DNA from: Sphingobacterium cavernae
GTDB lineage: Bacteria > Bacteroidota > Bacteroidia > Sphingobacteriales > Sphingobacteriaceae
Direction of reading: 5' to 3'
Length of the DNA: 64,000 nt
Assembly: GCF_008520265.1 (NCBI RefSeq)
Contig: NZ_VIQM01000054.1
Span: forward strand, 62,001 to 126,000
The translations under genes were made by a program, and so were the position numbers. This document shows positions 21,312 to 41,411 of the stretch, piece after piece (the stretch's first letter is position 1; each line of letters opens with the position of its first letter). The notes beneath the pieces were generated by a model, which made no database searches, was not told the origin of the DNA, and was given only the letters and a program-made list of their open reading frames with translations.

Positions 21312-22295
21312 TTACCATTGGATGGCTTGATCCTCATCTGGAATCTGTGTATTCAAAACACGTTGAAGACTTAATGTACCTTTTACAACATATTGAATGT
21401 TAATATTAGGTATCATCGTGTAGTCCGTGAAATTGTAATCAATATTATTAATTGTAATAGTTTTTCTTAATAAATAGGGATAGTTTGGCTCAATCATTTG
21501 ACTAACCGTATAACTCAAATCCTTATTAACTCTAAGGTTTAACAGTGGATTATCAGCATATAATTCTACACCGCCACTATCATTGAAGCGTGCATATATT
21601 TTATAATTTTGTCTGTCTTGTCTTTCTTCATCAATAGCTCCCGCATAAAAGAAAATTGTATTTTCATCAACAACGTAACTCTTAATTTCACTCTTCACAA
21701 TCGAAGTTTCATTTTCCGCTCCATCCATAAAAGTTCTCAATGCTGTACCTCCATATGTACCAGAGAAATTGTTAAATGGATTAATCCTTAACAATGCTTT
21801 TTTATAATGCTTGCGCGGATGTGGGATATAGGAAGACGAACCTTCGACAATAGTAAGTGGTAGTACCCACTTTTCAACTAAATTTATATTTTTCAACGTA
21901 AAATCAATATTTAAAAGCCCAACATCTTCACCTGATTTAATATCAAGTGTCTGATTGAAACTGAAATATTCATTTGGCAACATTCTGTAGTAGAAATCAG
22001 TTCTATTCTGAAATCTCTCATAATTAAGAATGTCCAAACTATCGCGATCGACATCAATTTTAACAGAAATATTCTGTGAGTTTGTATTAGATCCACTAAC
22101 TATTACAGGCAGTTTAAAACTTGTTTTTTCGTTATCACGATAGCGCACATAAATGTCTGACACACCACTTTGCGTGCTCAGAGGTGCTTTGAATGAAATG
22201 AAATTTTCGTATTGTTCATCCTTCCATTCATCATTGCATGAAGTATTAGCAAACAATAATGCCATTACTAGATATTTTATATAATTCTTTTTCAT
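21312..22295 (-). CDS. DUF1735/DUF4973 surface lipoprotein of the PUL
   Basis: A 327-residue lipoprotein (Cys20 in LLFANTSC). A DUF1735-like beta domain (about 30-170: FISFKAPLSTQSGVSDIYVR, NEYFSFNQTLDIKSGE, KWVLPLTIVEGSSSYI) is followed by a C-terminal DUF4973-like domain (FNNFSGTYGG to YVVKGTLSLQR). Proteins of this type are encoded next to SusD and are thought to be surface glycan-binding proteins, since they have no catalytic motif. It is the last gene of the four-gene operon, 11 bp after susD. Confidence 0.8.
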   Translation of the reverse strand: MKKNYIKYLVMALLFANTSCNDEWKDEQYENFISFKAPLSTQSGVSDIYVRYRDNEKTSFKLPVIVSGSNTNSQNISVKIDVDRDSLDILNYERFQNRTDFYYRMLPNEYFSFNQTLDIKSGEDVGLLNIDFTLKNINLVEKWVLPLTIVEGSSSYIPHPRKHYKKALLRINPFNNFSGTYGGTALRTFMDGAENETSIVKSEIKSYVVDENTIFFYAGAIDEERQDRQNYKIYARFNDSGGVELYADNPLLNLRVNKDLSYTVSQMIEPNYPYLLRKTITINNIDYNFTDYTMIPNINIQYVVKGTLSLQRVLNTQIPDEDQAIQW

Positions 22296-22306
22296 GAGAT
22301 ATACTT

Positions 22307-24358: not shown

Positions 24359-24369
24359 TGCTTTTACTT

Positions 24370-27300
24370 TTACAGATTAATATTAATACCGAAAGTCACA
24401 GATTTAGGTAGGGGATAATCCTCACCTCGTGGTGTTGCTAATTCTGGATCCCAAAGTTTGAAATTAGACCAAGTCATCAAATTGTGGCCAGCTAAGAACA
24501 ATCTAATGTTATTGGTCTTGATTCTATTTGTAAAACTCTTAGGTAAAGAAAAGCCAATATCAATATTTTTAAGCCTTAAGTATTGACCATTTCTTAACCA
24601 AAATGTAGATTCTCTAAAATTGTTTGGGAATGCTCCAAAGCTCAATCTTGGGTAGGAAGCATTAGGATCCTCTGTGGATGGATCTCCAGAAATATCTGCC
24701 GAAATCCAACGATTATCTCCCATGACACCTTTCATCACTTGACCCCATTCTCCTTCGCTAAATGCATAAACTGTTTTACCATACGTAGAAAACGTAGATT
24801 TTCCAGCTCCTTGGATATGCATATTAATGTCTATTCCTTTCCATTGGAAGGAAGAGCCCAATCCGTAGATTAGATTTGGTCTTCTGGTAGCGCCAATCGC
24901 TACGATATCACCATTGTCAATAATACCATCTCCATTTACATCTTTGTATTTTATATCTCCAGGTTGATATGCCCCAAAAGTCTGTGTAGGACTATTTCTG
25001 ATATCGTCGTAATCCTTAAATAATCCCAATGCAATTAAACCTTTGGCTTGATCCACGCGAAAACCTTCTGAATTTTGGTAGGGATAGACATTGTTCTCTT
25101 CGTCTCTTTCTAATATTTTGTTTTTGCTGTAGGTAATATTCCCTCTAGCGGTAACATTTACTTCACCTATTTTTTGTTTATAACTAAATCTTCCTTCAAA
25201 TCCTTTTGAACTCACCGCTCCAACGTTTGCCCTAGGTATACTTTCCAATCCTACAATTTCTGGAAGAAAGTTTCTAGGCATATAAATGCCAGTTCGTTCT
25301 TCATCAAATAGTTCTATGGAGCTTTCGAATTTATTGTTAAATAAGTTGATGTCGAATCCAAGATTTTGCTTCAATGAGACTTCCCATGATACATAAGGTG
25401 AAGCCACTTGAGAATACCGCAATCCTCCAAAACTTCTGGTTGAACCAAAATCTGCCCATTGGTAGCCTCCAGCTCCTCCGATATCGTATAGATATGGAAA
25501 ACGTTCTCTATTCATTAATTGGTCATTTCCTGTTTTACCATATGAAAATCTTACTTTAAGCAAATTCATCCATTCAGCGTTTTCTTTGAATATTTTTTCT
25601 TCCGAAATATTCCATGCAAAAGAAACGGCAGGAAAGAAACCATATTGATTGCCTCTAGCAAAGTTTTCAGAACCCGTGTATCCAAAATTGAAATCTGTGA
25701 AATAGCGGTTTCGATAATTGTATGTCACTCGACCAGCTAACGCTTCATTTTTACGTGCTAAACCATTCTTAATGTCATTACTATAATTCCTGTTTACGAC
25801 CACCCCATTTTCTAACACACTTTCATAATTTACTGTCTCTACAAGTGCATCGCGTGTAAATCTTGCAACAGCACCGATATTGTGTCCATTAAAAACACGA
25901 TCATAGTTAAACATAAAGTCTAAAAATTCTCTTCTATTGCCATATCCAGAGCCTAATTGTGTCATTTCCCTTGGATCAGATACTTTATAATAAATGATTT
26001 CTCCATTGTTGACATTACGTGCTCTATCTGCACGCCATTGCTCAGGCCATTTGATTCTTCTTATATTATTATTGTTATGTGTATCGTATCCAAAAATTCC
26101 ACGACCGCGTAATCCTTGTGTGATAAAATCTAAATTTTGTTCAGCAGTTACATTAATCTGGATATTATTCGTCCAGTTTTCATTATAGCCCGTTTGTGTA
26201 GCCATTACCCATGGATTTGTTCTATTACCTTCACCAACTGCTGGTATACGTCCATTGGAATACGTAATAGGCATACTAATAGGAGAGTATCCGAATAGCG
26301 AACCCCAAAAATCAATGTCACCAATACCAGGACTATTGCGCAAGCCTAATGATCCTGCAACTCCGACTTTTAGAATTGTCGAGCTCGTGACATTCATATC
26401 CGTATTTAGTCGGTAGTTCCATCGTTTGTAATTGGCATTGGTATTGTAATCTTTTTTCAAACTTTCATCGATTTTATACATACCACCTTCGTCGACGTAG
26501 CTTCCTGACACAAAGTAGCGTGCTGTTGAGCCACCACCACTCATATTTAAATTTGCACGGTGTGTCATAGCACCATCATTCAAAAGCTTAGCTTGCCAAT
26601 CAACATTTGGATAGAGGTCAGGATCGAGACCTAATCGTAATATTTCTAATTCTTCTGGCTGATACACAGGTTCGAAATTTCGTGTGATTCTTGCCTCATT
26701 CAAAAGGTTAGCATAGGTAAACCCATCCTCAAATTCTGGGGTAATTGTCCTTGTATTATAAATTGTTTCGTTTTTGAAATTGATGTTTATTTTACCTTCT
26801 TTCCCACGCTTTGTAGTAATTAAGATAACACCATTTGCGCCTCTTGAACCGTATATAGCAGTTACAGCAGCATCTTTCAAAACGGAGAACGATTCAATAT
26901 CTTCTATATTGATGTCATTGATATTACGTTCGATATTGTCTACTAGTACTAATGCGGATGAACCACCTCCAAACGTAGAAATACCACGAATCCAGAATTC
27001 AGAAATATTTCTACCCGGTTGACCTGACTGCATCATAGCCATGACACCAGCGACATTACCTGCTAAAGCATTAGAAAGACTGGATGTAGGATTTGATTTT
27101 AAATCATCTACGTTCACTGTAGTCACCGCACCGGTGAGCGTAAGTTTCGTTTGATTGCCTGTACCCGTAACTACAACTTCCTCTAATACGCTGGACTCTT
27201 TTTCTACTAATGTTATATTCAGTGTTAAATCTTCTTTGATAACTACTTCTTGAGTCTGAAATCCTACAGATCTAAAAACTAATTTCTTATAACGTTCGGC

Positions 27301-27492
27301 TTTAATTTTATAGACACCTTTATTATCTGTGATCGTACCAAGACCAGGAGCGTCTAATACATGGACACTTATACCTGGTAATGGATTTTTCTGTGCATCG
27401 AGTACAATACCCGTTACTTCAACTATTTCCTGCGCTAGCGACGAATTGATGACGCTAAGAAGTAAAATACAGGTTAGTAAGAATTTATTCAT
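24370..27492 (-). CDS. SusC/RagA-type TonB-dependent transporter of the PUL
   Basis: A 1040-residue outer-membrane importer driven by TonB. It has a signal peptide (to about residue 20, SSLAQ), then a carboxypeptidase-regulatory-like domain (VTGIVLDAQKNPLPGISVHV to about 95), a TonB box region near EEVVVTGTG, a plug with the SusC signature DAAVTAIYGSRGANGVI, and a 22-strand barrel ending at PKSVTFGININL. There is no N-terminal STN domain, so it does not signal to an anti-sigma factor; regulation is by the two-component system further right. It is 60 bp after the TIG/NHL gene and should import oligosaccharides. Confidence 0.96.
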   Translation of the reverse strand: MNKFLLTCILLLSVINSSLAQEIVEVTGIVLDAQKNPLPGISVHVLDAPGLGTITDNKGVYKIKAERYKKLVFRSVGFQTQEVVIKEDLTLNITLVEKESSVLEEVVVTGTGNQTKLTLTGAVTTVNVDDLKSNPTSSLSNALAGNVAGVMAMMQSGQPGRNISEFWIRGISTFGGGSSALVLVDNIERNINDINIEDIESFSVLKDAAVTAIYGSRGANGVILITTKRGKEGKININFKNETIYNTRTITPEFEDGFTYANLLNEARITRNFEPVYQPEELEILRLGLDPDLYPNVDWQAKLLNDGAMTHRANLNMSGGGSTARYFVSGSYVDEGGMYKIDESLKKDYNTNANYKRWNYRLNTDMNVTSSTILKVGVAGSLGLRNSPGIGDIDFWGSLFGYSPISMPITYSNGRIPAVGEGNRTNPWVMATQTGYNENWTNNIQINVTAEQNLDFITQGLRGRGIFGYDTHNNNNIRRIKWPEQWRADRARNVNNGEIIYYKVSDPREMTQLGSGYGNRREFLDFMFNYDRVFNGHNIGAVARFTRDALVETVNYESVLENGVVVNRNYSNDIKNGLARKNEALAGRVTYNYRNRYFTDFNFGYTGSENFARGNQYGFFPAVSFAWNISEEKIFKENAEWMNLLKVRFSYGKTGNDQLMNRERFPYLYDIGGAGGYQWADFGSTRSFGGLRYSQVASPYVSWEVSLKQNLGFDINLFNNKFESSIELFDEERTGIYMPRNFLPEIVGLESIPRANVGAVSSKGFEGRFSYKQKIGEVNVTARGNITYSKNKILERDEENNVYPYQNSEGFRVDQAKGLIALGLFKDYDDIRNSPTQTFGAYQPGDIKYKDVNGDGIIDNGDIVAIGATRRPNLIYGLGSSFQWKGIDINMHIQGAGKSTFSTYGKTVYAFSEGEWGQVMKGVMGDNRWISADISGDPSTEDPNASYPRLSFGAFPNNFRESTFWLRNGQYLRLKNIDIGFSLPKSFTNRIKTNNIRLFLAGHNLMTWSNFKLWDPELATPRGEDYPLPKSVTFGININL

Positions 27493-27552
27493 AATTCCAT
27501 TCTATTACTAAGGTTGTGATTTTGTTGATTATTACAATACTATTTGGTTAGA

Positions 27553-28998
27553 CTAATTATCACCTTCCAAAGCAATCTTTCTGAAGCGTCTGTTCGCACG
27601 ATCACCAATATAAAATGCTTTTTCAGTTTCATTGTATGCGATTCCGGTAGGTCTGTCAAAACGCGCCTCTAATCTTAAGTCTCCATCGACATAGCCCCAA
27701 GGGTTAGCATTCAGGCTTGAACTTCCTCGACCAGCAAAAGTAGACACTATACCTTCTGGTGTTAGCTTACGAATAGCGTGATTCATCTGATCTGTAAAAT
27801 AGAAATCGTATTCATCCGGCTTGCCCACTGCAGCGTAGTCTTCATTTTTAACGAAAACACCTTGATATGGTTCATTAAGTCTTACAGTAGCACCAATACC
27901 GTCATTATAGCCTGCAGCTCTTAATTGTCCACAGACTAAATAAGGCTGATTAAATTGTTTCTTTTCCCAATTGTAATCTATACGCAGGATGTAATGTTGA
28001 TTAATAACAACGATATAAGCATAGTTACCTGTAGGATGTATAAATGTTTTAAATTCCCACTGCGGATCATGCACAAAAAATAATGTTTCATAGTCTTTTT
28101 GTTCCAATCCTTGAGAAAAATATTTATTCATATCAAATCTGAAAAATTGACCTTTTTCATAACTGTTAAAATACATTTCTCCATTAATGGGATGTACAGT
28201 AGCACCGTTGCATTGACGATAACGCGTTAATATTTCAGTATCCAAGAAATTTCTAGCACGAGATAATAGTGTAGTAGCCCCATCATTTTCTCCCCCTCGG
28301 TCTTCTGAAATAATCATGTGATCCCCTTCAGCCGTGAAATCTATACTACGTGGTCTGTTAAAATTGGACCTTATTTTAGTAACTACGCTATCCTGAAAAT
28401 TGAGCAGGTATAACCCATTATTATTATCAAAAGTAACATACAAATGTTTTGGATTTTTAGGATCAAATTTCATGTGTGAGGGTTCCCAGAATCCACTCGC
28501 CATTTTATTTTGGTCTGGATCTTTGAATTTTCCATCCCTCCACGGCTCGTCTCCACGTTCATTTCTATACCCTACAACGGTAGACACAATCATTTTTCGC
28601 TGATAAAGAAATTTTTCATTTGCCTTTCCGATAATTGGCAATTGTTCTTCACCAACACGAACTTCTATATCTCCTTCGTAGGCTTTTGTAGGCACTAAAC
28701 AATAGATGGATTCTCCTTGAGCACTGATAACAATAGCAGATTGACCGCCAATTATTACAGAAATGATAGATGGGTCATTCCCAAAATTTTTTCCATAAAT
28801 AACCAGACGTTGACCAGCTCCTCCAGTCTTAGGTTGAAAATCCGAAACAACTACGGGGTGTTTTGGATCAAAAGGCAAAGCGGAATCTATTGTTTTTTCA
28901 TCCGATTTACACGACCATATTCCTAAAAATATTGCTGGAATCATCCATAACAAATACTGTAGGCGTAGGTTTGAACTTAATGTAAGTTTATTTCTCAT
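27553..28998 (-). CDS. IPT/TIG and NHL-propeller surface lipoprotein
   Basis: A 481-residue lipoprotein (Cys30 in IFLGIWSC). One IPT/TIG immunoglobulin-like domain spans about 48-125 (VVSDFQPKTGGAGQRLVIYG, GKNFGND). It is followed by a beta-propeller of NHL type (MKFDPKNPKHLYVTFDNNNG, DFYFTDQMNHAIRKLTPEGI, GIAYNETEKAFYIGDRANRR). In Bacteroidota PULs such proteins sit at the cell surface and probably bind glycan. It is the first gene of the leftward operon and has a long leader of about 195 bases downstream of the regulated promoter at 29199. Confidence 0.85.
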   Translation of the reverse strand: MRNKLTLSSNLRLQYLLWMIPAIFLGIWSCKSDEKTIDSALPFDPKHPVVVSDFQPKTGGAGQRLVIYGKNFGNDPSIISVIIGGQSAIVISAQGESIYCLVPTKAYEGDIEVRVGEEQLPIIGKANEKFLYQRKMIVSTVVGYRNERGDEPWRDGKFKDPDQNKMASGFWEPSHMKFDPKNPKHLYVTFDNNNGLYLLNFQDSVVTKIRSNFNRPRSIDFTAEGDHMIISEDRGGENDGATTLLSRARNFLDTEILTRYRQCNGATVHPINGEMYFNSYEKGQFFRFDMNKYFSQGLEQKDYETLFFVHDPQWEFKTFIHPTGNYAYIVVINQHYILRIDYNWEKKQFNQPYLVCGQLRAAGYNDGIGATVRLNEPYQGVFVKNEDYAAVGKPDEYDFYFTDQMNHAIRKLTPEGIVSTFAGRGSSSLNANPWGYVDGDLRLEARFDRPTGIAYNETEKAFYIGDRANRRFRKIALEGDN

Positions 28999-29198
28999 AA
29001 GCGATTAGTTGGCTGTTAATATTATTTTAGGCAGATGTTATCTTTTGCTTATAGCAACTTTTAATGCATATATGATCAAAATAATCTATATGCTTCTAGC
29101 ATCTAATTTCACCTTATTATTGTACTATTTAAATTTGATGAATATTGCTAAAACGATTTCCTAAATGTTGCGAATGATTTATTTTATAATTGATTACT

Positions 29199-29206
29199 CA
29201 AAGTTA
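29199..29206 (-). promoter_or_regulatory. -7 promoter box of the TIG/NHL-susC-susD operon
   Basis: TAACTTTG on the minus strand matches TAnnTTTG exactly. No TTG is present at the -33 position, as expected for an activator-dependent promoter. The nearest operator half-site ends 24 bp upstream. Confidence 0.65.
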
Positions 29207-29230
29207 GTTGATAAAAAAATCCATCGGATG

Positions 29231-29265
29231 TCAATTTATCTCATTAAATATTCAATTTGTCTCAT
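29231..29265 (-). promoter_or_regulatory. Direct-repeat operator of the PUL (SusC operon side)
   Basis: On the minus strand ATGAGACAAATTGA (29252-29265) and ATGAGATAAATTGA (29231-29244) are repeated at a 21-bp period, two helical turns, as used by AraC-type dimers. The same arrangement is found before the GH127 gene. Confidence 0.7.
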
Positions 29266-29377
29266 ATATTTTACAATAGCGGTTTTAATTTATAACTTTC
29301 AAAAAGCTTGGATAATAGCCACTTATTATTTAAGTCGAGACCTGTGAATTTTAAAAGCTAATTATATATAGACTAAA

Positions 29378-30814
29378 ATGAAAATTTTCCAATTCCGTTA
29401 TTTATCGTACGCGTGTTTTTTTGTTGTTATAGCATGTAGCACAATATGTATGCATGTAAATGCATCTGCTATTTCGAGAAATATTCATAAAGTAGCGAGC
29501 GAAGATGTACAAAGGAGCATGAATTTAATTGATAATGCGATGAAATATTACTTTACCCCAGATTCTTCTACTATGTATAGATTCTATAATCCATATACAA
29601 TGAATCGAACTGATGAAAAGGCTAGTGTTTGGATGTATTCTGCTGCTATAGAGTCTGTTAATGCAGTTTTAAAATCGCTTAAGCACGTTAAACAACAGGA
29701 TATCCAAGCTATAAAGAAGTATGAAAAGTTATTAGAAAAATTGTACGACAATGCCGATTATTATTTAGGAACTTTTGAACTTACATCATTCACTCAAACC
29801 AAAACATGGAGTGTATATGCTGTCGATAGAGTAAATAAAAAAGGTGAGGCAAGAGTAACAGGAATTTATAATGTTTATGACGATCAGATGTGGTTAGTTC
29901 GTGAGTTATTAGACTCTTATCATTTGACAAAAAATGATAAATACTTGGAGAAAGCTGAATACTTGACAGCCTATGTATTAGACGGATGGGATGCTACATT
30001 TGATGCAAATGGAAATGAACATGGCGGTATACCTTGGGGACCAGGATATGTTACAAAGCATGCGTGTAGTAATGGACCTATGGTGAGTCCATTAGTGTGG
30101 CTTCATGAAATTTATAAAGGCAAAAAAGATAAAATCACGCATAATTATATAGATATAAAAGATCAAAAAACGCGCAAGTCAAAATTAGTAGCCAAGGAGA
30201 ATTATTATCTGGATTTTGCGAGGAAAGTTTATGATTGGCAAAAACGCAATCTATTAAATTCAAGGGGAGTATATGACGACATGATGGGAGATTGTACACC
30301 AGATTGTTCTATTGTGTATGAAGAAATAAATGGTGTAAAATACAGAGCACATACTAAATTATTAAAACCTATAGGTAGATCCTATACTTATAATTCGGGT
30401 ACAATGCTCTCTGGTGCAGCGGATTTATATCGTGTCACCAAACGTAAAGATTATATAGAAGATGCAAAAAAACTGGCTATAGCTAGTTTTTCTTCATTCG
30501 CTAAACTAGATGAACAAGTACAGAATTATTATACATTTCCATATGATGGCTTTAGTAATTGGTTCAATACAGTTCTTTTAAGAGGTTATATGGATTACGC
30601 ACGTGTTGATACATCAGCTCATCAATATATTAAGTCATTTAGAAATAATCTGGAATACGCGCATTCAAATTTCCTTTATAATGGATTGCTACCAACGGAT
30701 TTATTAGGTGGATGGAACACAGACAAAACAAAAAATAATATTGAAGGAATGTTTGTTTTTTCATTTGCTACACAGTGGGCATTATTTGATCACATGATTC
30801 ACCAAAAAAATTAA
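29378..30814 (+). CDS. GH76-family alpha-mannanase-like enzyme
   Basis: A 478-residue exported protein of glycoside hydrolase family 76, whose known members are endo-alpha-1,6-mannanases with an (alpha/alpha)6 barrel. The catalytic Asp pair is D168-D169 in YNVYDDQMWLV. Other family segments are HGGIPWGPG, ACSNGPMVSPLVWLHEIY, YTYNSGTMLSGAADLYRVT and FSFATQWALFDHM. The N-terminus has a hydrophobic signal whose VIAC (Cys20) may be a lipobox; signal peptidase I cleavage near ASA (residue 31) is the alternative. It stands alone between the SusC operon and the regulator genes, and points to an alpha-1,6-mannose backbone in the target glycan. Confidence 0.85.
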   Translation: MKIFQFRYLSYACFFVVIACSTICMHVNASAISRNIHKVASEDVQRSMNLIDNAMKYYFTPDSSTMYRFYNPYTMNRTDEKASVWMYSAAIESVNAVLKSLKHVKQQDIQAIKKYEKLLEKLYDNADYYLGTFELTSFTQTKTWSVYAVDRVNKKGEARVTGIYNVYDDQMWLVRELLDSYHLTKNDKYLEKAEYLTAYVLDGWDATFDANGNEHGGIPWGPGYVTKHACSNGPMVSPLVWLHEIYKGKKDKITHNYIDIKDQKTRKSKLVAKENYYLDFARKVYDWQKRNLLNSRGVYDDMMGDCTPDCSIVYEEINGVKYRAHTKLLKPIGRSYTYNSGTMLSGAADLYRVTKRKDYIEDAKKLAIASFSSFAKLDEQVQNYYTFPYDGFSNWFNTVLLRGYMDYARVDTSAHQYIKSFRNNLEYAHSNFLYNGLLPTDLLGGWNTDKTKNNIEGMFVFSFATQWALFDHMIHQKN

Positions 30815-30830
30815 ATTCAATAAGGATATC

Positions 30831-31616
30831 TTAGATGTCTGGGATGTCCTTGTTATTTTGTTTATTTTGAAATTCACTTGGACTTATCCCAAATTGTTTT
30901 TGAAAGTTTCGTGAAAAATGTTGTGCAGAGCTGTAACCTAGGAGATTCGAAATCTCATATATTTTAAGTTTTCCTTGAGCTAATAGTTCAGCTGATCGAC
31001 GCAACCTTGTTAAATTAATCAGTTCATTGGGTGATAGACTTGACACCATATTTATTTTTCTATACAGTGTTGGTCTACTCATACACAGGATGTCTGCCAT
31101 TTTATCTACATTAAACTGTGGATTGTCAATATTTTGAATAATTATTTCTTCTATTTTTATCAGAAACTCCTTATCGCTTTGGTTCTGCCCAATTTGTTGT
31201 ATTTGTGAGGTTGGATTTTTAAAAAAGAATTCCCGTACTCGTGTTCTATTGTTGAGCAAACTTGTTATTTGTGCCCGTAAAAAAGCTAACGAAAATGGTT
31301 TTTCAACATAAGCATCGGCACCATATTCAAGGCCTTTTATTTTGGATTCAATTGTATTTTTAGCTGTCAAAAGAATAATAGGAATGTGTGCTAAATTTAT
31401 ATTTCCTTTGACCTTCGCGCAAAACTCGAATCCATCCATATCAGGCATCATAATATCGCTAATAATGAGATCAAAATTTTCTTGCTCAAATAATGCATAC
31501 GCTTCCAAACCATTAGTGGCTTTGGTGATATGGTAGACCTCCATCAAATCATCTGCTATGAATTCAAGCAATTCAGCATGATCGTCAATGAGTAATAGGT
31601 TAGCTTTAGCATTCAT
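30831..31616 (-). CDS. Response regulator with receiver and AraC-type DNA-binding domain
   Basis: A 261-residue cytoplasmic regulator. The receiver domain (residues 5-120) has the acidic pair D11-D12, phospho-acceptor D54 in IISDIMMPDMDG, and the Lys in EKPFSLAFL. The AraC/XylS double helix-turn-helix occupies about 158-252 (DKMADILCMSRPTLYRKI, YEISNLLGYSSAQHFSRNFQ, KQFGISPSEF). It starts three bases after the stop of the sensor kinase, in the same reading frame, so together the two genes equal one hybrid two-component regulator. It is the likely binder of the direct repeats at 29231 and 34881. Confidence 0.93.
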   Translation of the reverse strand: MNAKANLLLIDDHAELLEFIADDLMEVYHITKATNGLEAYALFEQENFDLIISDIMMPDMDGFEFCAKVKGNINLAHIPIILLTAKNTIESKIKGLEYGADAYVEKPFSLAFLRAQITSLLNNRTRVREFFFKNPTSQIQQIGQNQSDKEFLIKIEEIIIQNIDNPQFNVDKMADILCMSRPTLYRKINMVSSLSPNELINLTRLRRSAELLAQGKLKIYEISNLLGYSSAQHFSRNFQKQFGISPSEFQNKQNNKDIPDI

Positions 31617-31619
31617 AAA

Positions 31620-34600
31620 CTAAGTTTGGTTTAAAGGTAGTCGCAAGGTAAAGGTATTAAGATTTTCGTTATCTATAGTATAACTGATGATGCCATTTAG
31701 TTTGATGGCGAGCGATTGCGCCAATGATAGCCCAAGCCCGCTACCTGGAATGCTCTTGCTGTGTTTCAGTCGGTTAAAAGGTTCAAATATATATTCTCTA
31801 TCTACTTCCTTGATCAGAATACCATCATTTTTAATAGAAAGTATTAATGCACTATTAACAGAATCTTTTTGTAAATTCACTTTAATTGTTTTGTAAGAAT
31901 ACTTTAATGCGTTGTTCAGTAGGTTGTTGCATATAATCTCATAGGCTTCGAGATCAATATCACACGTAATATTAGGCTCTATATTACTACTTAATTTCTT
32001 ATGTTGTGAGTCTAAAGTCACCTTGTAATTATCTACATATTCCTGTGTAGACGCACTGATGTCCTTCAATTCAAAATGAAATTTGAATCCTTTGGTTTCT
32101 ACTTTTCTGAAATCTAAAAGTTGATTGCTCAACGAAATAAGACGTTCAGTATTGTTTTGAATATTCTTTAGCAGTTTATCTGTAATTGGGTTTGATGGAA
32201 TTTTATCAATCAATTTTTCCAAAGGAGCTTTAATAAGAGTCAATGGGGTACGAATCTCATGAACCACATCTGTATAAAAATCTATTTTAGATTGATAAAG
32301 TTCTTGTTCGCGGAGATTTTGTATGGTCAATAGATGTTCTTTATTCTTTTGTTTTATACGCTCATTGAAATGATAAGCTATAAACAATATGAGACAAACA
32401 ATAATAACGCAATATAAGACAAATGCGGGTATACTCGCCCATATTGGCGGTAAGATTTTAATTCTTAGTTTGCGTTCACTTGAGAAAGGTATTCCATTTG
32501 GATCTTCTGCTTTGACGATGAAATCATAATTACCAGGTAGGAGTTTGGTAAAATGTGCGCTCGTGGAGCCATTAGTTGTTACCCAGTCCTTATTAACACC
32601 GTGCAATTTATAGCTATATTTAATTGCATTTGGGGAATCATATAGTAGCGCTGTGAAGTCCAAATTAAAAGAGGACTCATTGTATTTGAGAATTATTTCA
32701 TCTGTAAATAGGATGGATTTTTTCAAAACGGAATCTGCGTCGTTTTGATTTATTTCTTTATTATTAACAGTTAATCTGGTGATATAAATAGGCGTATTAG
32801 AATTGTATTTTATCTGATTTAGCTTTTCGGGTTCAAATCGAATCATTCCATTGATAGTTCCAAAATAGAACTTTCCTGCTCCATCATCATACGATGAATT
32901 GTAATTGAATTGAATTGATGGCAATCCAGACTCTATATTGAATAACCGTGTGTTATTCGTACCTTGATTATATCGAATTAAACCTTTAGAAGTTGTAATC
33001 CAAATATTTTTATGCTTATCCTCTAAAACGGCAAATACAATCTTACTAGGCAGTTTAATATCAGGATTCTGAAAATCAAATTCAATATTCTTATTCAGAA
33101 TAATTTTTCCCAACCCGCCTTCTGTTGCTATCCATATTTTTCCATTTGAATCTTCAAATATGGAGTTTACTTTGTTATTCGGGAGTGAATTCGGGTTATT
33201 AGGTTCGTGAGCAAAATGCTTTATAATATTTTTACTTGGATGATACATGTACAATCCGTTTCTCCAAGTACCTAACCAGATGTAACCTTTGCTATCTTCT
33301 AAAAGGGTAGTGTATGACATTTCTGTGGGCACCTTAGTGATAGGACTGAATGATTTGTTTGTAATATCAAACGTATAATGCCCTCGTGTAGTAGCAATTA
33401 AAATTTCACCAGATTTACTTTTTTTAATGTCGTATAGAAAGTTGCTTTTTAGCGAGGAAGCTGAATTAGCATCGTATTCTGTGTGATAGATAACTTTTTT
33501 GGATTGGGTATTAAAAATATCCATGCCGTATACAAATGCTCCAAGAAGTATATTTTCTTCATACGGAAGAAGTCCGTGGATATTGTTGTCGGAGAGACCT
33601 GCATTTTCAATATTATAATTTTCGATATGACGAGTGATTGGATTTAGTTTACTAAGACCTCCATTCTCGGTTCCTAACCAAATATTTCCGTTCTTATCTT
33701 TATTGATACCACGGACGACAGTGCCTAATAAATTGCCGCCTTGAGTTTTTGACATAAACTTTTCGATAAGATTATTATTCTTATGATAATAGTTTATCCC
33801 CCCAAAATAGGTGCCTAACCAAATCCCTCCATCTTTATCCTTCAATATATTATAAATAGCATTATCCGAAATTCCCCAAGGATTATTTTCTGCTTTCTTG
33901 ATATTTATGAAGTTTTTGGTTTCTATATTGTATATAAATAAACCTGATTCAGTCGCGAACCAATATTCTTGCTCATTCATCTGAAGAATATCCCGTACAT
34001 ACAGATATTGTTTTAGCTGTTTAATGCCTAATAACCACGTGACGGTATTATCTTTTGAGACGGAACCAACTCCAGCTTTCGAAGTTCCAAATATTAAATT
34101 ACCCTTTTCATTTTTAATAATTTTTTGAATAACAAACCAATCTTTAGGCCCATGTTTTTGTTCTAAATCGATAAGTGTGGTTGAACGGAATTTTTCAACT
34201 AGACAGATTTTTCCATTGAATGTGCCATAATATAATTTATCCTCCTTCGAACAGAATAATGCGGAGATATTATTTTCATCTACATTTATTTTTGTCGTAT
34301 TTTTTTTTGAATAATTATAAAAATATAGACTTTGGTTAGCTATAAACCAGATATTATTTTTTGAATCTTTTTTGATTACGGGTACATCAGCATTGGCAAA
34401 CTCTTCACTTAAAAGAGCGAATGTTTCGTGTATTGGATTATATATATAGATTCCCTGATCAGTACCTATCCATATTTTTTTTTCATTATCTTCTATTAGT
34501 GATATGATATTATTTGCAACAGTATTGAGGACGTGATTTCGAATATCAAAATGTTTGAAATTATTTCCATCAAACCTATCCAATCCATCTTTAGTTCCAA

Positions 34601-34760
34601 GCCACAAAAACCCAAAACTATCTTGCATGTTGCAAATGACAGTATTGTTGGAAAGTCCATCGTTTATTTGATAATGATTGAAATAATAAGGCTGCGCATA
34701 TTGCTGTGTGGGCAATACGAAAAATAACATAAGGATTAGCCAAGAATCTATTTTATTCAT
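31620..34760 (-). CDS. Sensor histidine kinase with two-propeller periplasmic domain (split hybrid system)
   Basis: A 1046-residue inner-membrane sensor. After a signal peptide (MNKIDSWLILMLFFVLPTQQ region), about 14 Reg_prop blades such as LWLGTKDGLDRF, IWLGTENGGLSKL and IWIATEGGLGKI form two seven-bladed propellers, followed by a Y_Y_Y domain (about 690-765). One membrane helix spans about 776-796. The kinase core has the phospho-acceptor H834 in VVHEIRTPL, the N box NNLLNNALKYS, and the ATP lid PGSGLGLSLAQ. This matches the first part of a Bacteroidota hybrid two-component sensor, which binds an oligosaccharide of its PUL. The receiver and AraC parts are encoded as a separate gene immediately downstream. 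Confidence 0.94.
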   Translation of the reverse strand: MNKIDSWLILMLFFVLPTQQYAQPYYFNHYQINDGLSNNTVICNMQDSFGFLWLGTKDGLDRFDGNNFKHFDIRNHVLNTVANNIISLIEDNEKKIWIGTDQGIYIYNPIHETFALLSEEFANADVPVIKKDSKNNIWFIANQSLYFYNYSKKNTTKINVDENNISALFCSKEDKLYYGTFNGKICLVEKFRSTTLIDLEQKHGPKDWFVIQKIIKNEKGNLIFGTSKAGVGSVSKDNTVTWLLGIKQLKQYLYVRDILQMNEQEYWFATESGLFIYNIETKNFINIKKAENNPWGISDNAIYNILKDKDGGIWLGTYFGGINYYHKNNNLIEKFMSKTQGGNLLGTVVRGINKDKNGNIWLGTENGGLSKLNPITRHIENYNIENAGLSDNNIHGLLPYEENILLGAFVYGMDIFNTQSKKVIYHTEYDANSASSLKSNFLYDIKKSKSGEILIATTRGHYTFDITNKSFSPITKVPTEMSYTTLLEDSKGYIWLGTWRNGLYMYHPSKNIIKHFAHEPNNPNSLPNNKVNSIFEDSNGKIWIATEGGLGKIILNKNIEFDFQNPDIKLPSKIVFAVLEDKHKNIWITTSKGLIRYNQGTNNTRLFNIESGLPSIQFNYNSSYDDGAGKFYFGTINGMIRFEPEKLNQIKYNSNTPIYITRLTVNNKEINQNDADSVLKKSILFTDEIILKYNESSFNLDFTALLYDSPNAIKYSYKLHGVNKDWVTTNGSTSAHFTKLLPGNYDFIVKAEDPNGIPFSSERKLRIKILPPIWASIPAFVLYCVIIVCLILFIAYHFNERIKQKNKEHLLTIQNLREQELYQSKIDFYTDVVHEIRTPLTLIKAPLEKLIDKIPSNPITDKLLKNIQNNTERLISLSNQLLDFRKVETKGFKFHFELKDISASTQEYVDNYKVTLDSQHKKLSSNIEPNITCDIDLEAYEIICNNLLNNALKYSYKTIKVNLQKDSVNSALILSIKNDGILIKEVDREYIFEPFNRLKHSKSIPGSGLGLSLAQSLAIKLNGIISYTIDNENLNTFTLRLPLNQT

Positions 34761-34806
34761 GAACTTACGAGCCTTGTTGGTTTATATTGGTAGAATGTTA
34801 TACTTT

Positions 34807-34814
34807 CAAATATA
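34807..34814 (-). promoter_or_regulatory. -7 promoter box of the sensor kinase operon
   Basis: TATATTTG on the minus strand, an exact TAnnTTTG match, 46 bp before the kinase start. A weak copy (9 of 14 bases) of the PUL half-site lies exactly 24 bp upstream, at 34839-34852. Confidence 0.5.
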
Positions 34815-34880
34815 ACCTATTGCCCTAAAAATAGATAAACATTTTATCTTTCACTATCTTACCATTAGATAATCAAAGGA

Positions 34881-34915
34881 ATGATACAAAAAGATATGAT
34901 TTTGAGATAATTTGA
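34881..34915 (+). promoter_or_regulatory. Direct-repeat operator of the PUL (GH127 operon side)
   Basis: ATGATACAAAAAGA (34881-34894) and TTGAGATAATTTGA (34902-34915) are spaced 21 bp. They match the two half-sites of the SusC operon at 11 and 12 of 14 positions (counting the C/T position as either base), in the same orientation relative to transcription. Confidence 0.65.
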
Positions 34916-34939
34916 AGTTTTGTTTAAAAGTAAGCGTTC

Positions 34940-34947
34940 TATATTTG
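34940..34947 (+). promoter_or_regulatory. -7 promoter box of the GH127 operon
   Basis: TATATTTG, an exact TAnnTTTG match, 39 bp before the GH127 start and exactly 24 bp after the operator. The -33 position is poor (a TTG 17 bp upstream at best), which fits activation by a bound regulator. Confidence 0.65.
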
Positions 34948-34986
34948 GGATAATCAATTATTAATAAATTAAAATCTATCTACACC

Positions 34987-37032
34987 ATGACAAAGCATTT
35001 ATTTCTTGCACTCATATTAGGTTTTGGATTGAGCAAAGTATCTGCACAGCGAGAGACGATTACGAGTGTTCAAGAATTGCCTGTAGGCTCCAAGAATGCT
35101 TATTATATAAACAATAGATTGCCATTAAAACAGAATTTATTACTCAAACTACCGGTAGGTAACATACGTCCCGGAGGTTGGTTGGGACGATATTTGGAAC
35201 TACAAAAGGATGGTTTGACGGGTAATTTGGGAGAAATAAGTGCCTGGTTATCCAAAAAGAATAACGCTTGGTTGAGTAAAGATGGAACTGGGGATCATGG
35301 ATGGGAAGAGGTGCCCTATTGGCTTAAGGGATATGCCCACTTGGGATATATATTAAAAGACCCAAAAATCATTGAGGAGTCTAAAATCTGGTTGGAAGCA
35401 GCGATTCAAAGTCAACGATCAGATGGATACTTCGGTCCATTGATATTAAGAAATAATAAGCCTGACCTTTGGGGAAATATGATTATGCTGTGGTGTCTTC
35501 AATCTTACTACGAACACAGCGGCGACGAAAGAGTATTGACATTAATGACCAATTATTTTAGATGGCAACAGAAGCTTCCAGATAGTTTTTTACTAAAAGA
35601 TTATTGGGAACATCCGCGCGGAGGTGACAATTTACTATCAATCTTTTGGTTGTATAATCGTACAGAAGGTAATGAATGGCTGATGGAATTGGCTGATAAA
35701 ATTCACCGCAATACGGCTGATTGGACAAAGCATAGAGATTTACCGAATTGGCATAATGTGAATGTGGCGCAGAGTTTTAGAGAGCCAGCGACATATTATC
35801 TGAAAAGTCATGATATCAAGCATTTAAAAGCGACATATGATAATTTTCATTTTGTACGTGAGGTATTCGGTCAAGTACCAGGAGGTATGTTTGGTGCTGA
35901 TGAAAACGCACGCCCTGGATATACCGATCCACGACAAGGCGTAGAAACCTGTGGAATGGTGGAGCAGATGGCTTCAAATGAAATTTTATTAGGTATCACT
36001 GGCGATCCTTTTTGGGCTGATCATGCTGAAGAAGTGGCTTTCAATACATATCCTGCTGCTGTAACAGCTGATTTCAGGGCTTTGCGTTATATTACTAGTC
36101 CTAACATGACTGTTAGCGACAGCAAAAATCATGCGCCAGGTATTGATAATAGTGGTCCATTCTTGATGATGAATCCATTCAGTTCTAGGTGTTGTCAGCA
36201 TAACCATAGTCAAGGTTGGCCTTATTATGCAGAGCATTTGTATATGGCTACCAATGACAATGGTGTCGCTGCGGTATTGTATGCAGCTTCAGTCGCTGAT
36301 GTGAAAGTCGGAAACAAAGGCGAGGTAAGCATTAAACAAACTTCCAACTACCCTTTTGAGGAAGCTATTGCTTTTGAAATTAATACCAAACATAAGAATA
36401 TAAAATTTCCATTTTACTTACGTATACCTGAATGGGCTAATCAAGCGGAAGTAATAGTGAATGGCAAAAAATACAATGTTGCACGTGGAGCTAAATATTT
36501 CAAGATAGATCGTCAGTGGAATAGTGGAGACAAAGTTGAGTTAATATTACCGATGGCCGTACGCGTGAAAGTATGGGAAGAGAATAAAAATGCGGTTAGT
36601 ATCATGCGTGGACCGCTCACGTATTCCTTAAAAATTAAGGAAGAATATATAGAGAAAGATAGTAAGGCTTCAGCTATTGGTGATTCAAAGTGGCAAGAGG
36701 ATGCTGATCCCTCAAAATGGCCTTCGTATGAAATATTGCCTGCTAGCGATTGGAATTATGGTGTCGTAAAAAGTGAATTAGAACGTCCAGAAAATTTAAA
36801 AGTAATTAAGAAAGACTGGCCGAAAGATTCTTTTCCATTCGAGGCGAATGCAGTGCCTATATCTATTACGATAAAAGCCAAACAGCTAAAAGAATGGTTG
36901 ATTGATCGGCATGGGCTTACTGGAGTTCTTCCTTTAAGTCCGCTTGTTGTAGATACCAAGGAACAAGTTGTTGAGCTTATACCAATGGGGGCGGCACGTT
37001 TGCGTATTTCCGCATTTCCTGTAGTAAATTAA
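34987..37032 (+). CDS. GH127-family (DUF1680) beta-L-arabinofuranosidase-like enzyme
   Basis: A 681-residue exported enzyme with signal peptide (cleavage near VSAQ, residue 20). The (alpha/alpha)6 barrel is of the DUF1680/GH127 type. In the characterised GH127 enzyme a zinc-bound cysteine is the nucleophile. Here the equivalent residues are visible as E306 (GADENA), E320 and C322 (VETC), and the pair C402-C403 (SRCCQHN), with comparable spacing. A beta-sandwich domain follows (FPFYLRIPEWANQAEVIVNG). Known activities include beta-L-arabinofuranosidase and related sugars, so the exact substrate is open. It is the first gene of a three-gene operon behind the regulated promoter. Confidence 0.87.
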   Translation: MTKHLFLALILGFGLSKVSAQRETITSVQELPVGSKNAYYINNRLPLKQNLLLKLPVGNIRPGGWLGRYLELQKDGLTGNLGEISAWLSKKNNAWLSKDGTGDHGWEEVPYWLKGYAHLGYILKDPKIIEESKIWLEAAIQSQRSDGYFGPLILRNNKPDLWGNMIMLWCLQSYYEHSGDERVLTLMTNYFRWQQKLPDSFLLKDYWEHPRGGDNLLSIFWLYNRTEGNEWLMELADKIHRNTADWTKHRDLPNWHNVNVAQSFREPATYYLKSHDIKHLKATYDNFHFVREVFGQVPGGMFGADENARPGYTDPRQGVETCGMVEQMASNEILLGITGDPFWADHAEEVAFNTYPAAVTADFRALRYITSPNMTVSDSKNHAPGIDNSGPFLMMNPFSSRCCQHNHSQGWPYYAEHLYMATNDNGVAAVLYAASVADVKVGNKGEVSIKQTSNYPFEEAIAFEINTKHKNIKFPFYLRIPEWANQAEVIVNGKKYNVARGAKYFKIDRQWNSGDKVELILPMAVRVKVWEENKNAVSIMRGPLTYSLKIKEEYIEKDSKASAIGDSKWQEDADPSKWPSYEILPASDWNYGVVKSELERPENLKVIKKDWPKDSFPFEANAVPISITIKAKQLKEWLIDRHGLTGVLPLSPLVVDTKEQVVELIPMGAARLRISAFPVVN

Positions 37033-37061
37033 AATATAATAAACCTAATAATATTTATTTG

Positions 37062-38894
37062 ATGAAAAGAAAGATTTTTATAGCATGTCTCATGCTGGCT
37101 AGCCAGCTTAATTTTGCCCAAGATTGGAAACCTGCTGGTTCTAAAATTTTAACTCCTTGGGGAGAAAAAGTTACGGCACAACAGCCACACCCAGAATATC
37201 CACGTCCTATGTTGGTCCGTGAAAATAATTGGCAAAATCTTAATGGTTTGTGGAATTATGCCATTACAGCAGCAGATAGAAAAGATTTTCCTGAAACTTG
37301 GGAAGGTCAGATTCTAGTGCCATTTGCTGTGGAATCCGCATTATCTGGTGTTGGAAAAGAGGTAGGTAAAGATAAAGCATTGTGGTATCAAAGAACAATC
37401 TCAATTGATAAAAATGTAAATAAGGATAATATTCTATTGCATTTTGGTGCGGTGGATTGGCAATGTGACGTTTATGTCAACAATAGTTTGGTTGGAAGAC
37501 ACGAAGGTGGATTTAATTCCTTCTCTATGGACATCACCAAATTTGTGAAAAAAGGCGCTAAGCAAGATGTTGTTATTCGTGTATGGGATCCAACGGATGA
37601 TGGGCCGCAGCCTCGTGGAAAGCAAATAAAAAATCCACACGGTATTTGGTATACACCTGTTACAGGTATTTGGCAGACAGTTTGGTTAGAAAGTGTTCCT
37701 CGCACATATATCGCTAATACTAAACAGACACCACAATTTGATGTAGGCAAACTGACTTTCGAAGCGAATGTAGAGGGTAGTCAAGCAGGTGATCAAATAA
37801 AGGTGGCCGTATTGGATGGTAAAAAACAAATCAAGGCACAAGTATTGGATGCAAATACTACGGTGGATATTCATGTTCCAAACCTCGAAGCTTGGTCTCC
37901 TTCTAATCCAAAATTGTATGACTTGGATATACAATTGATTCGCAATGGTAAAGTAATAGACAAAACGAAGAGCTATTTTGCGATGCGCAAAATTTCAATG
38001 GAAAAAGACAAAAATGGAATTCAACGTATGATGTTGAATAACAAGTTCGTGTTTCAATATGGGCCATTGGATCAAGGTTGGTGGCCGGATGGATTACACA
38101 CAGCGCCATCAGATGAAGCGCTGAAATTTGATGTAATTAAGACAAAAGAAATGGGCTTTAACATGATTCGTAAACATATTAAAGTAGAGCCAGCACGTTG
38201 GTACCGCCACTGTGATAGTATCGGAATGCTTGTATGGCAAGATATGCCTAGTGGTGATTTAGGTGGGAATAGTTGGGACATGCAACCTGGTAAAATTTCT
38301 GGTGATCTAAGAGACAAAAATCGTTCAGCTGAGTCGGAAGGGTATTTCCGCAAAGAATGGAAAACGATTATGGAAACATTACACAATTATCCAAGTATCG
38401 TCGTATGGGTGCCTTTCAATGAAGCGTGGGGGCAATTTAAAACAAAAGAAATAACCGAATGGACAATGGCTTTTGATGATTCTAGACTAACAAATAGTGC
38501 AAGTGGAGGTAACTTCATGTATACTGGACATATTTTGGATATACACAACTATCCTGACGCAGCGAGTCCAGACCCCGCAGTTTTTGGTTCAGAATTTATA
38601 TTAGCTCTAGGTGAATTTGGAGGATTAGGATTACCCGTTGATGGCCATACTTGGCAGCAAAAAGACAATTGGGGTTATCAAAGCTTTAAAAGTAAGGAAG
38701 AGTTACTTAAAAGATATCAAGAACTGATCTACAAATTAGATAAACTGATTCCTATGGGGTTGTCGGCAGCTGTATACACACAAACTACGGATGTAGAGGT
38801 AGAAACTAATGGATTGATGACATATGATCGTAAAGTAATTAAGATTTCTGAAGCTGAGTTAGATAAGGTACATCGTAAATTGTATTCACACTAA
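37062..38894 (+). CDS. GH2-family exo-glycosidase
   Basis: A 610-residue exported enzyme; the ATG at 37062 is preferred over the TTG codon before it. A signal peptide ends near residue 19 (NFAQ). The order is the sugar-binding jelly roll (ENNWQNLNGLWNYAI, LVPFAVESALSGVG, GRHEGGFNSFSMDI), an immunoglobulin-like domain, and a TIM barrel with acid/base E454 in PFNEAWGQF and nucleophile E518 in ALGEFGGLG. GH2 covers beta-galactosidase, beta-glucuronidase, beta-mannosidase and others, and specificity cannot be assigned. It follows GH127 by 29 bp. Confidence 0.9.
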   Translation: MKRKIFIACLMLASQLNFAQDWKPAGSKILTPWGEKVTAQQPHPEYPRPMLVRENNWQNLNGLWNYAITAADRKDFPETWEGQILVPFAVESALSGVGKEVGKDKALWYQRTISIDKNVNKDNILLHFGAVDWQCDVYVNNSLVGRHEGGFNSFSMDITKFVKKGAKQDVVIRVWDPTDDGPQPRGKQIKNPHGIWYTPVTGIWQTVWLESVPRTYIANTKQTPQFDVGKLTFEANVEGSQAGDQIKVAVLDGKKQIKAQVLDANTTVDIHVPNLEAWSPSNPKLYDLDIQLIRNGKVIDKTKSYFAMRKISMEKDKNGIQRMMLNNKFVFQYGPLDQGWWPDGLHTAPSDEALKFDVIKTKEMGFNMIRKHIKVEPARWYRHCDSIGMLVWQDMPSGDLGGNSWDMQPGKISGDLRDKNRSAESEGYFRKEWKTIMETLHNYPSIVVWVPFNEAWGQFKTKEITEWTMAFDDSRLTNSASGGNFMYTGHILDIHNYPDAASPDPAVFGSEFILALGEFGGLGLPVDGHTWQQKDNWGYQSFKSKEELLKRYQELIYKLDKLIPMGLSAAVYTQTTDVEVETNGLMTYDRKVIKISEAELDKVHRKLYSH

Positions 38895-38930
38895 TTCTAT
38901 AAATAAAGTGTTTTAATATCTACACACACT

Positions 38931-41411
38931 ATGAAATTAAAAAGTAAAATTACTTTTTTCGCCTTGTTGATTTGTTGTGCTACCAATCTGATAGCACAAC
39001 AATCACAGGTTAAAAATGATTTGCGCGCACCAGCATTTCCATTGATCACTATAGATCCTAATACAAGTGCTTGGTCATATACTGATAATTTGTATGATGA
39101 TGCGGTTCGCCATTGGACGGACAAAGCTTTTCCACTTTTAGGAGTAATTAAAGTAGATGGGGTAGCTTACCGTTTTCTGGGAAAAGAAGAAATAGAACTC
39201 GAGCCAATAGCAAAAATGGCTGAACATGAATCATGGTCTGCAAAATATACTTTTACAGAACCTTCTAAAGATTGGACACAAATCAATTTTTCGGACACGA
39301 ATTGGAAATTAGGTGCTGCACCATACGGTACTTTAGATACTGAACCTAATTCAAAAACTGATTGGCAAGAGCCTAAGATTTGGGTAAGACGTGAAGTAAT
39401 TTTGAAGGAAGACTTGAATGGGAAGCCCGTCTATATCGAATTTACGCATGACGATGATGCAATCATGTATGTGAATGGGATTGAAGTGGCCAATACTGGA
39501 CAAGCAACGGGTAAAAATCGTAGAGTTAAGTTGCCTGAGGAAGTCGTTAAAACTTTAAAAAAAGGTAAGAATATAATTGCTGGTTATTGTTACAATAGAG
39601 TAGCTAATGGTTATTTTGATTTCGGAATGTTTACAGAACGTAAAAATACTATCTCTTTTACAAATGCAGCAAGGCAAAAATCTGTTGATGTACAAGCTAC
39701 ACAAACACATTATCAATTTGAATGTGGTCCAATAGATTTGAAGCTCTCTTTCATTGCACCTTTATTGTTGACGGACTTAGAACTTGTTTCAAGACCGGTA
39801 AACTATATCAGCTACGAAATTATGTCGCGAGATGGTAGAAAACATGATGTACAATTATATTTTGAAGCATCTTCTAATTGGGCGCTTGACTCGCCATTGC
39901 AGGAATCATTAAGCTCGCATTACAAATCTGGCAATTTGCAGTATGTAAAAACTGGTAGCAAAAGCCAAGACGTATTAGGCAAAAAAGGAGATCATATCCG
40001 AATTGATTGGGGATATTTCTATATGGCAGCAGATGCTAACAAGACTAAATCCGCTATAGGAAACGGAGCCAATCTGCGCGAACAATTTCTGAAAGGTACT
40101 TCAATTCAATCTGCACAAAATGGAAGCCAATTAGTACTCACCCAAAACTTTTCGGGGTCAGACAAGTATGCAGATAAAATTATGCTAGGTTATGATGATA
40201 TTTATTCCATCCAATATTTTGGTAAAAACCTGCGTCCATATTGGAATCGTAATGAAAACAGTACTATAGAAAAGCAATTTGAATTAGCAGACAAACAGTT
40301 TTCAAAACTAAAATCAGCTTGTGATAAGTTTGATGCTGAATTGTGGGATACTGCATTACGCACTGGAGGTAGTGAATATGCTGCTTTGTCTGCATTAGCT
40401 TATCGTCAGTCAATTGCAGCACATAAGTTGGTACAAGCTCCTAATGGCGATTTGTTATTGCTTTCGAAAGAAAATGACAGTAACGGGTCAATAGGAACTG
40501 TGGATGTAACTTATCCTTCAGCTCCTTTATATTTGTATTATAATCCCGAATTAGCTAAAGGATTGTTGAATCATATCTTTTACTACAGCGAAAGTAAACG
40601 TTGGACCAAGCCATTTGCCGCGCACGATATAGGCACCTATCCGATTGGTAATGGTCAAACATATGGTGGCGATATGCCTGTAGAAGAATCTGGAAATATG
40701 TTGATTTTGACCTATGCTATTGCTTGCATGGAGAAGAATGCTAATTACGCAGCAAGGCATTGGGATGTGCTCACGACTTGGACGGATTATCTAGTGGAGC
40801 ACGGATTAGATCCAGACAATCAATTGTGTACGGACGACTTCGCTGGGCATTTTGCACATAATGCGAACTTATCTGTTAAAGCAATTGTAGCTATTGCGTC
40901 ATACGGCTATTTGGCAGAAATGCTTGGAAAGTCTGATGTTGCTAAAAAGTATATTGGAATAGCAAGAGACATGGCTTCGCAATGGAAAAACATGGCTGCT
41001 GATGGCGATCATTACAAGTTGACTTTTGATAAATCCGGCACATGGAGTCAAAAATACAATTTGGTATGGGATAAGTTATTAGACATGAATATTTTTGACA
41101 AATCCATATTCAAAACAGAAGTAAACTATTATTTGACCAAACAAAATCAATATGGTTTGCCACTCGACAATAGAAGAACCTATACAAAGACAGATTGGAT
41201 AGTGTGGTCTGCTACTTTAGCTGACGACAAAGCAACATTTCAAGAATTTATTTCTCCAGTATACAAATTTATGCATGAAACCACGGATCGTGTTCCTATG
41301 TCAGATTGGGTATATACTGACAAACCCACACGCTCTGGATTCAAAGCTAGATCAGTAGTTGGTGGATACTTTATCAAAATGCTAGAAGAAAAAATCAATA
41401 AGTTGAAATAA
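38931..41411 (+). CDS. DUF4964-DUF5127-DUF4965-DUF1793 (glutaminase A-like) protein
   Basis: An 826-residue exported protein with signal peptide (cleavage near IAQ, residue 23). It starts with DUF4964 (RAPAFPLITIDPNTSAWSYT). A galactose-binding-like insert follows at about 95-215 (WKLGAAPYGTLD, FTHDDDAIMYVNGIEV), then DUF5127, DUF4965 (EYAALSALAYRQSIAAHKLV, GTVDVTYPSAPLYLYYNPEL) and DUF1793 (LCTDDFAGHFAHNANLSVK, GLPLDNRRTYTKTDWIVW). Fungal relatives are called glutaminase A. In Bacteroidota the family is common inside PULs, which makes a glycosidase role more likely here; that is inference. Last gene of the GH127-GH2 operon, followed by a terminator. Confidence 0.85.
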   Translation: MKLKSKITFFALLICCATNLIAQQSQVKNDLRAPAFPLITIDPNTSAWSYTDNLYDDAVRHWTDKAFPLLGVIKVDGVAYRFLGKEEIELEPIAKMAEHESWSAKYTFTEPSKDWTQINFSDTNWKLGAAPYGTLDTEPNSKTDWQEPKIWVRREVILKEDLNGKPVYIEFTHDDDAIMYVNGIEVANTGQATGKNRRVKLPEEVVKTLKKGKNIIAGYCYNRVANGYFDFGMFTERKNTISFTNAARQKSVDVQATQTHYQFECGPIDLKLSFIAPLLLTDLELVSRPVNYISYEIMSRDGRKHDVQLYFEASSNWALDSPLQESLSSHYKSGNLQYVKTGSKSQDVLGKKGDHIRIDWGYFYMAADANKTKSAIGNGANLREQFLKGTSIQSAQNGSQLVLTQNFSGSDKYADKIMLGYDDIYSIQYFGKNLRPYWNRNENSTIEKQFELADKQFSKLKSACDKFDAELWDTALRTGGSEYAALSALAYRQSIAAHKLVQAPNGDLLLLSKENDSNGSIGTVDVTYPSAPLYLYYNPELAKGLLNHIFYYSESKRWTKPFAAHDIGTYPIGNGQTYGGDMPVEESGNMLILTYAIACMEKNANYAARHWDVLTTWTDYLVEHGLDPDNQLCTDDFAGHFAHNANLSVKAIVAIASYGYLAEMLGKSDVAKKYIGIARDMASQWKNMAADGDHYKLTFDKSGTWSQKYNLVWDKLLDMNIFDKSIFKTEVNYYLTKQNQYGLPLDNRRTYTKTDWIVWSATLADDKATFQEFISPVYKFMHETTDRVPMSDWVYTDKPTRSGFKARSVVGGYFIKMLEEKINKLK

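Follow-up and report, generated by a model that had tools for sequence, protein, structure and literature searches.

A tandem operator shared by two promoters of a Sphingobacterium PUL and its likely recognition by a split HTCS-derived regulator

How two operons on opposite strands of one PUL might be brought under common control is the question raised by this locus, which lies within a 64,000-nucleotide stretch of Sphingobacterium cavernae DNA (the window). The first-pass annotation had described, at both promoters, two 14-mers with a 21-bp period followed after 24 bp by an exact TAnnTTTG box, and direct reading of the sequence reproduced every element of that description. Operator A (minus strand, 29265-29231) has the layout ATGAGACAAATTGA-atattta-ATGAGATAAATTGA, 24 bp, then TAACTTTG; operator B (plus strand, 34881-34915) has the layout ATGATACAAAAAGA-tatgatt-TTGAGATAATTTGA, 24 bp, then TATATTTG. 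A GH76 gene and a kinase/response-regulator pair sit between the two operators. On the best-supported reading of the sequence, A and B are copies of one tandem operator that serves the AraC-type response regulator whose gene lies between them.

Two operators of one layout

The features on which the analysis draws are as follows.

21312-28998, minus: target operon A, encoding a TIG-domain protein, SusC-like and SusD-like proteins, and a BT_3987/BT_3044-like lipoprotein
29186-29196, minus: TAATCAATTAT, just past the -7 box of promoter A
29199-29206, minus: -7 box TAACTTTG of the TIG/susC/susD operon, 24 bp past operator A (read directly)
29231-29244, minus: operator A, proximal half-site ATGAGATAAATTGA, 21 bp from the distal half (read directly; kept in the nearest relative, L081)
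29252-29265, minus: operator A, distal half-site ATGAGACAAATTGA (read directly; kept in L081)
30831-31616, minus: response regulator, 261 aa, REC and AraC-type domains; presumed operator binder
31620-34760, minus: sensor kinase, 1046 aa, Reg_prop propeller, Y_Y_Y, HisKA and HATPase_c domains (Pfam); separate from the regulator
34807-34814, minus: candidate -7 box TATATTTG of the kinase-regulator operon
34881-34894, plus: operator B, distal half-site ATGATACAAAAAGA (read directly; orthologous site in L081, TTGATACAAAACGA)
34902-34915, plus: operator B, proximal half-site TTGAGATAATTTGA (read directly; orthologous site in L081, TTGAGATAAATTGT)
34940-34947, plus: -7 box TATATTTG of the GH127/GH2/GtaA-like operon, 24 bp past operator B
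34951-34961, plus: TAATCAATTAT, just past the -7 box of promoter B
34987-41411, plus: target operon B, encoding GH127, GH2 and a GtaA-like (DUF4964/DUF5127) protein

To place the two repeats in context, the upstream 14-mers of all 99 TAnnTTTG boxes in the window (both strands) were compared at the geometry of A and B. The halves of operator A agree at 13/14 positions, the next best pair in this comparison reaching 9/14. Those of operator B are degenerate, and its internal repeat is unremarkable when taken alone because the halves agree at only 8/14, a score equalled at two other boxes. Operator B is convincing only through its match to operator A, with which it is identical at 23/28 positions, and through its conservation. 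In 300 random windows built to first order, i.e., with the nearest-neighbour composition of the window, the best match to A per window was 18-21 positions.

No TAnnTTTG-like box was present upstream (29207-29377) of the GH76 gene, which starts at 29378 on the plus strand and diverges from the TIG/susC operon. Likewise, the operator pair was absent at the 24-bp position from the candidate box of the kinase-regulator promoter.

Rarity, conservation and spacing to the -7 box

A genome-wide search for the pair, suggested in the first-pass annotation, was run on the 4.07-Mb host genome and did not place it at many unrelated genes. With two or fewer mismatches to the paired pattern, A and B were the sole matches; at three mismatches, 10 further places were found, as compared to 5 for a reversed-pattern control. 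The next, weaker match was the susC promoter of a paralogous split HTCS (L099, contig C98).

Comparison of orthologous PUL promoters, likewise suggested beforehand, found the operator pair conserved. In the nearest relative, L081, whose regulator is 92% identical, the gene order, both operators and both boxes are kept, as are both 24-bp spacers, in length more than in sequence; in an alignment of intergenic region A, the main conserved island consists of the operator halves, the box and the TAATCAATTAT that comes next. In another 12 genomes, where regulator identity is 72-77%, GH127 or susC is preceded by the pair with TAnnTTTG 24 bp away. Pair, 24 bp and TAnnTTTG thus occur in all PULs with 72-92% identical regulators (L081-L093), 13 orthologous PULs whose sites are not fully independent observations. 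Most of the 12 relatives possess an extra pair ahead of a mutarotase-like gene that lies between the kinase and the operon after it, with a degenerate box, GA(C/T)TTTAG, at the same 24 bp. Examples of this extra pair are found in L083 (13672-13706), L082, L089 and L093.

The distance to the box was measured on operator pairs taken from non-coding DNA of the loci by half-site cores only, ignoring the promoter; pairs were kept if an ORF lay downstream within 700 bp, and near-copies were removed (n=33). Exact TAnnTTTG stood at +24 in 11/33 of these non-redundant pairs and nowhere else between +10 and +39 (binomial P ~4e-25 from the box frequency in non-coding DNA, uncorrected for kinship between sites), and a relaxed box,.A..TTT(A/G), stood at +24 in 20/33. 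Many operators of relatives have weak boxes at +24 (GATTTTAG, GAATTTTA) instead of exact TAnnTTTG, indicating that the -7 box is often degenerate. Column information was high in the half-sites and in the box but did not exceed 0.34 bit per column between them; there is thus no conserved -33 element. A consensus of TAnnTTTG at -7 and TTTG near -33 has been described in B. fragilis, and the latter element was not found in F. johnsoniae (PMC7366714). The assertion that neither promoter of the window has a proper -33 TTG held for A; in B, a TTTTG ends 17 bp ahead of the box, rather close to it, and is not kept in L081. The proximal half-site, at a fixed 24 bp and abutting the promoter core, is placed as in class II-like activation.

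A split HTCS-derived regulator as the presumed binder

Pfam confirmed that the gene between the operators encodes an AraC-type regulator, as had been proposed, with matches to Response_reg (1.9e-24) and HTH_18 (3.5e-19). By Pfam, the locus encodes a propeller/Y_Y_Y sensor together with kinase, REC and AraC-type domains, as in an HTCS, on two ORFs rather than as a single polypeptide; the ORFs are separate in relatives too. The regulator also matches, over its length, a solved hybrid two-component system protein (PDB 12aw). In a quick likelihood tree, 27 split and two fused regulators formed one group (SH-aLRT 100, the one support measure used) nested among the fused HTCSs; this group, in Sphingobacteriaceae, includes Pedobacter, Olivibacter and Sphingobacterium. 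Given the two ORFs and the nesting of their clade in fused HTCSs, the pair is termed here a split HTCS-derived two-component system. The single split group suggests that the split is probably old, with one main origin within the group. A recent split of an HTCS by a stop codon was rejected: the ORFs are separate in close relatives, the junctions vary and the split regulators essentially make up a single clade. Tandem repeats of 21-22 bp are also used by LytTR-type regulators; a regulator of this type was ruled out, as the encoded protein bears an AraC-type domain.

Like the fused HTCSs (BT4124, BT4663 and others; PMC11253607; PDB 12aw), the window encodes propeller/Y_Y_Y, HisKA, HATPase_c, REC and AraC-type domains in the same DNA order. 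In contrast, kinase and regulator are two proteins here, and the clade of the window has AHIP where most have an S/CHIP-type motif in REC, a motif linked in fused HTCSs to inhibition of DNA binding (PMC11253607). AHIP is common to nearly all close orthologues and is found mainly in the clade of the window and in one other group. Loss of S/CHIP as a result of the split was not supported, as most split regulators keep SHIP or CHIP.

HTCS operators have been predicted in Bacteroides as direct repeats averaging 21 bp, with half-sites of 12-16 bp, located ahead of susCD-type operons in the vicinity of the HTCS gene (Ravcheev et al. 2013, PMC3878776). The suggestion that a 21-bp period suits tandem binding by an AraC-type protein agrees with these published motifs. 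Operators A and B likewise have half-sites spaced by ~21 bp, lie upstream of co-located operons and are conserved in orthologous loci; here, as in that paper, the motif is common to several operons of one PUL and an AraC-type domain is the presumed binder. Differences from the operators described there are the core, WTGAKAC-RA, the separate regulator, and a rigid, measured 24 bp to the -7 box; a fixed spacing rule was not found stated in the available portion of PMC3878776. In the literature searched, mostly outside subscription journals, no earlier report of the 24-bp spacing or of a split HTCS was found. New here are the motif, the split regulator and the measured fixed spacing, direct-repeat HTCS operators of 21 bp having already been predicted in 2013.

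The motif follows the regulator clade. WTGANAC pairs at period 21 numbered 28 in 37 split-regulator loci, with 0-2 at each of the other tested periods, as compared to 4 in 42 fused loci. Three of these four (L123-L125) come from loci whose fused regulators are neighbors of the split group, and TAnnTTTG again stands exactly 24 bp away, as it does for a WTGANAC pair of Olivibacter (L001). Across 41 genomes of the genus, the pair pattern gave ~175 matches, as compared to 18 for the reversed control, and several of the distal matches that were examined precede susC-type operons.

Conservation of the motif at orthologous PULs, its rarity elsewhere and its presence in loci of the same regulator clade favor the shared-operator reading: A and B are very probably operators of the intervening split HTCS, the putative activator of both operons. 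In E. coli, AraC at araI1-araI2 occupies two direct-repeat half-sites two helical turns apart and activates in a class II-like manner. Promoters A and B are reminiscent of this arrangement in that the proximal half-site adjoins the promoter core; in contrast to AraC, the primary sigma and the promoter code (TAnnTTTG) differ, and phosphorylation rather than arabinose is the proposed control. The sensor kinase (31620-34760) would detect a breakdown product of the glycan of the PUL and phosphorylate the separate response regulator (30831-31616), which would then bind as a head-to-tail dimer, each subunit on its own 14-bp half-site and the two half-sites spaced by two turns of DNA. The promoter-proximal subunit, ending a fixed 24 bp before TAnnTTTG, may contact RNA polymerase in the manner of AraC at araI1-araI2; this contact would make up for the missing -33 element, so that the susCD and GH127 operons would be switched on together. 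We infer binding, phosphorylation and activation from the family (PMC11253607) and by analogy with AraC.

Three other explanations were weighed. The main binder of the pairs might be a different AraC-family regulator, such as the C98 paralogue, or both regulators might bind them as a shared regulon. The host genome has 28 HTH_18 matches, and the C98 regulator, 50% identical to that of the window, has at its own susC promoter ATGAAACAAATTAA-7-ATGAAACAATATGG with GATTTTTG 24 bp on. However, both window operators flank the kinase-regulator operon and accompany it in orthologous PULs across the genus, and the C98 half-sites have GAAAC where those of the window have GAGAC, GATAC or GAGAT, making this an improbable explanation. 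The C98 operator (G000:C98:53446-53478, L099) is near-identical to those of the window, with its box GATTTTTG at 24 bp. Since a paralogous PUL has so similar an operator, cross-regulation between the two PULs is possible. A regulator acting at these operators as a repressor or anti-activator is less probable still and would come as a surprise: the operator is close to the promoter and position by itself is no proof of activation, but the operator lies upstream of the promoter core and not over it, the lack of a conserved -33 element and the many weak -7 boxes suggest promoters needing help, and susCD promoters are treated as HTCS targets, with DNA binding released by phosphorylation (PMC11253607). 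Chance similarity of AT-rich promoter DNA, to which the AT-rich motif and the weakness of site B alone (8/14) might point, can be dismissed almost entirely, as the random windows, genome-wide rarity, conservation in 13 orthologous PULs and an unvarying 24-bp distance contradict it and uphold the initial judgement that identical spacing was unlikely by chance.

Spacing beyond the clade and the post-box element

In fused-HTCS loci of the genus, where half-sites are unrelated (e.g., TGTCAATTTTTAAA), period 21 was found in 19 regions and other periods in 0-8. Seven non-redundant fused-locus susC promoters with an exact box exhibited a peak of identity at period 21, with 23-24 bp between the end of the proximal repeat and the box; period 22 was raised too. 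A box-anchored test of unselected HTCS loci from many Bacteroidota yielded an excess at period 21 and no clear distance peak, since motifs not known beforehand have an arbitrary register and low-complexity DNA contributes noise. Repeated on Bacteroides, Phocaeicola and Alistipes, this test was only weakly positive (period 21 in 12 regions, period 22 in 9), as it was on Dysgonomonas (7 regions with period 21, tied with period 35). A general spacing rule is therefore supported within the genus, and its signal is weak in Bacteroidales.

There is about an even chance that a broader statement holds, namely that HTCS promoters of the family consist of a 21-bp tandem operator, 24 bp, a -7 box and no -33 element, often with TAATCAATTAT at the start site; that, for the Bacteroidota primary sigma, the operator takes the place of the -33 element whatever its half-site sequence; and that HTCS fission kept motif and geometry. 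Such indifference to half-site sequence would make HTCS regulons readable from sequence. HTCS activation of the unusual Bacteroidota promoter has had little experimental footing so far, and a fixed 24 bp ahead of a -33-less promoter offers a sharp model that can be put to the test, as well as a rule by which to search for HTCS regulons. Because the split lineage retains the same kind of site and the same geometry, this natural split of an HTCS also allows one to ask whether fusion of kinase and regulator matters for signalling.

TAATCAATTAT begins 2-3 bases past the -7 box in both window promoters and probably overlaps the start site. ATCA.TTA past the box was present in 9/17 operator-bearing promoters of related loci, as compared to 1/254 others, the lone case being the susC promoter of a fused HTCS of the host (contig C77). 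The element was noted at locus L240 as well. An Rfam family search of 28800-35200, the TIG leader included, returned no match. The leader ahead of the TIG gene (28999-29198) is ~200 nt and that of GH127 ~40 nt; in L161 and its kin, the leader exceeds 500 nt.
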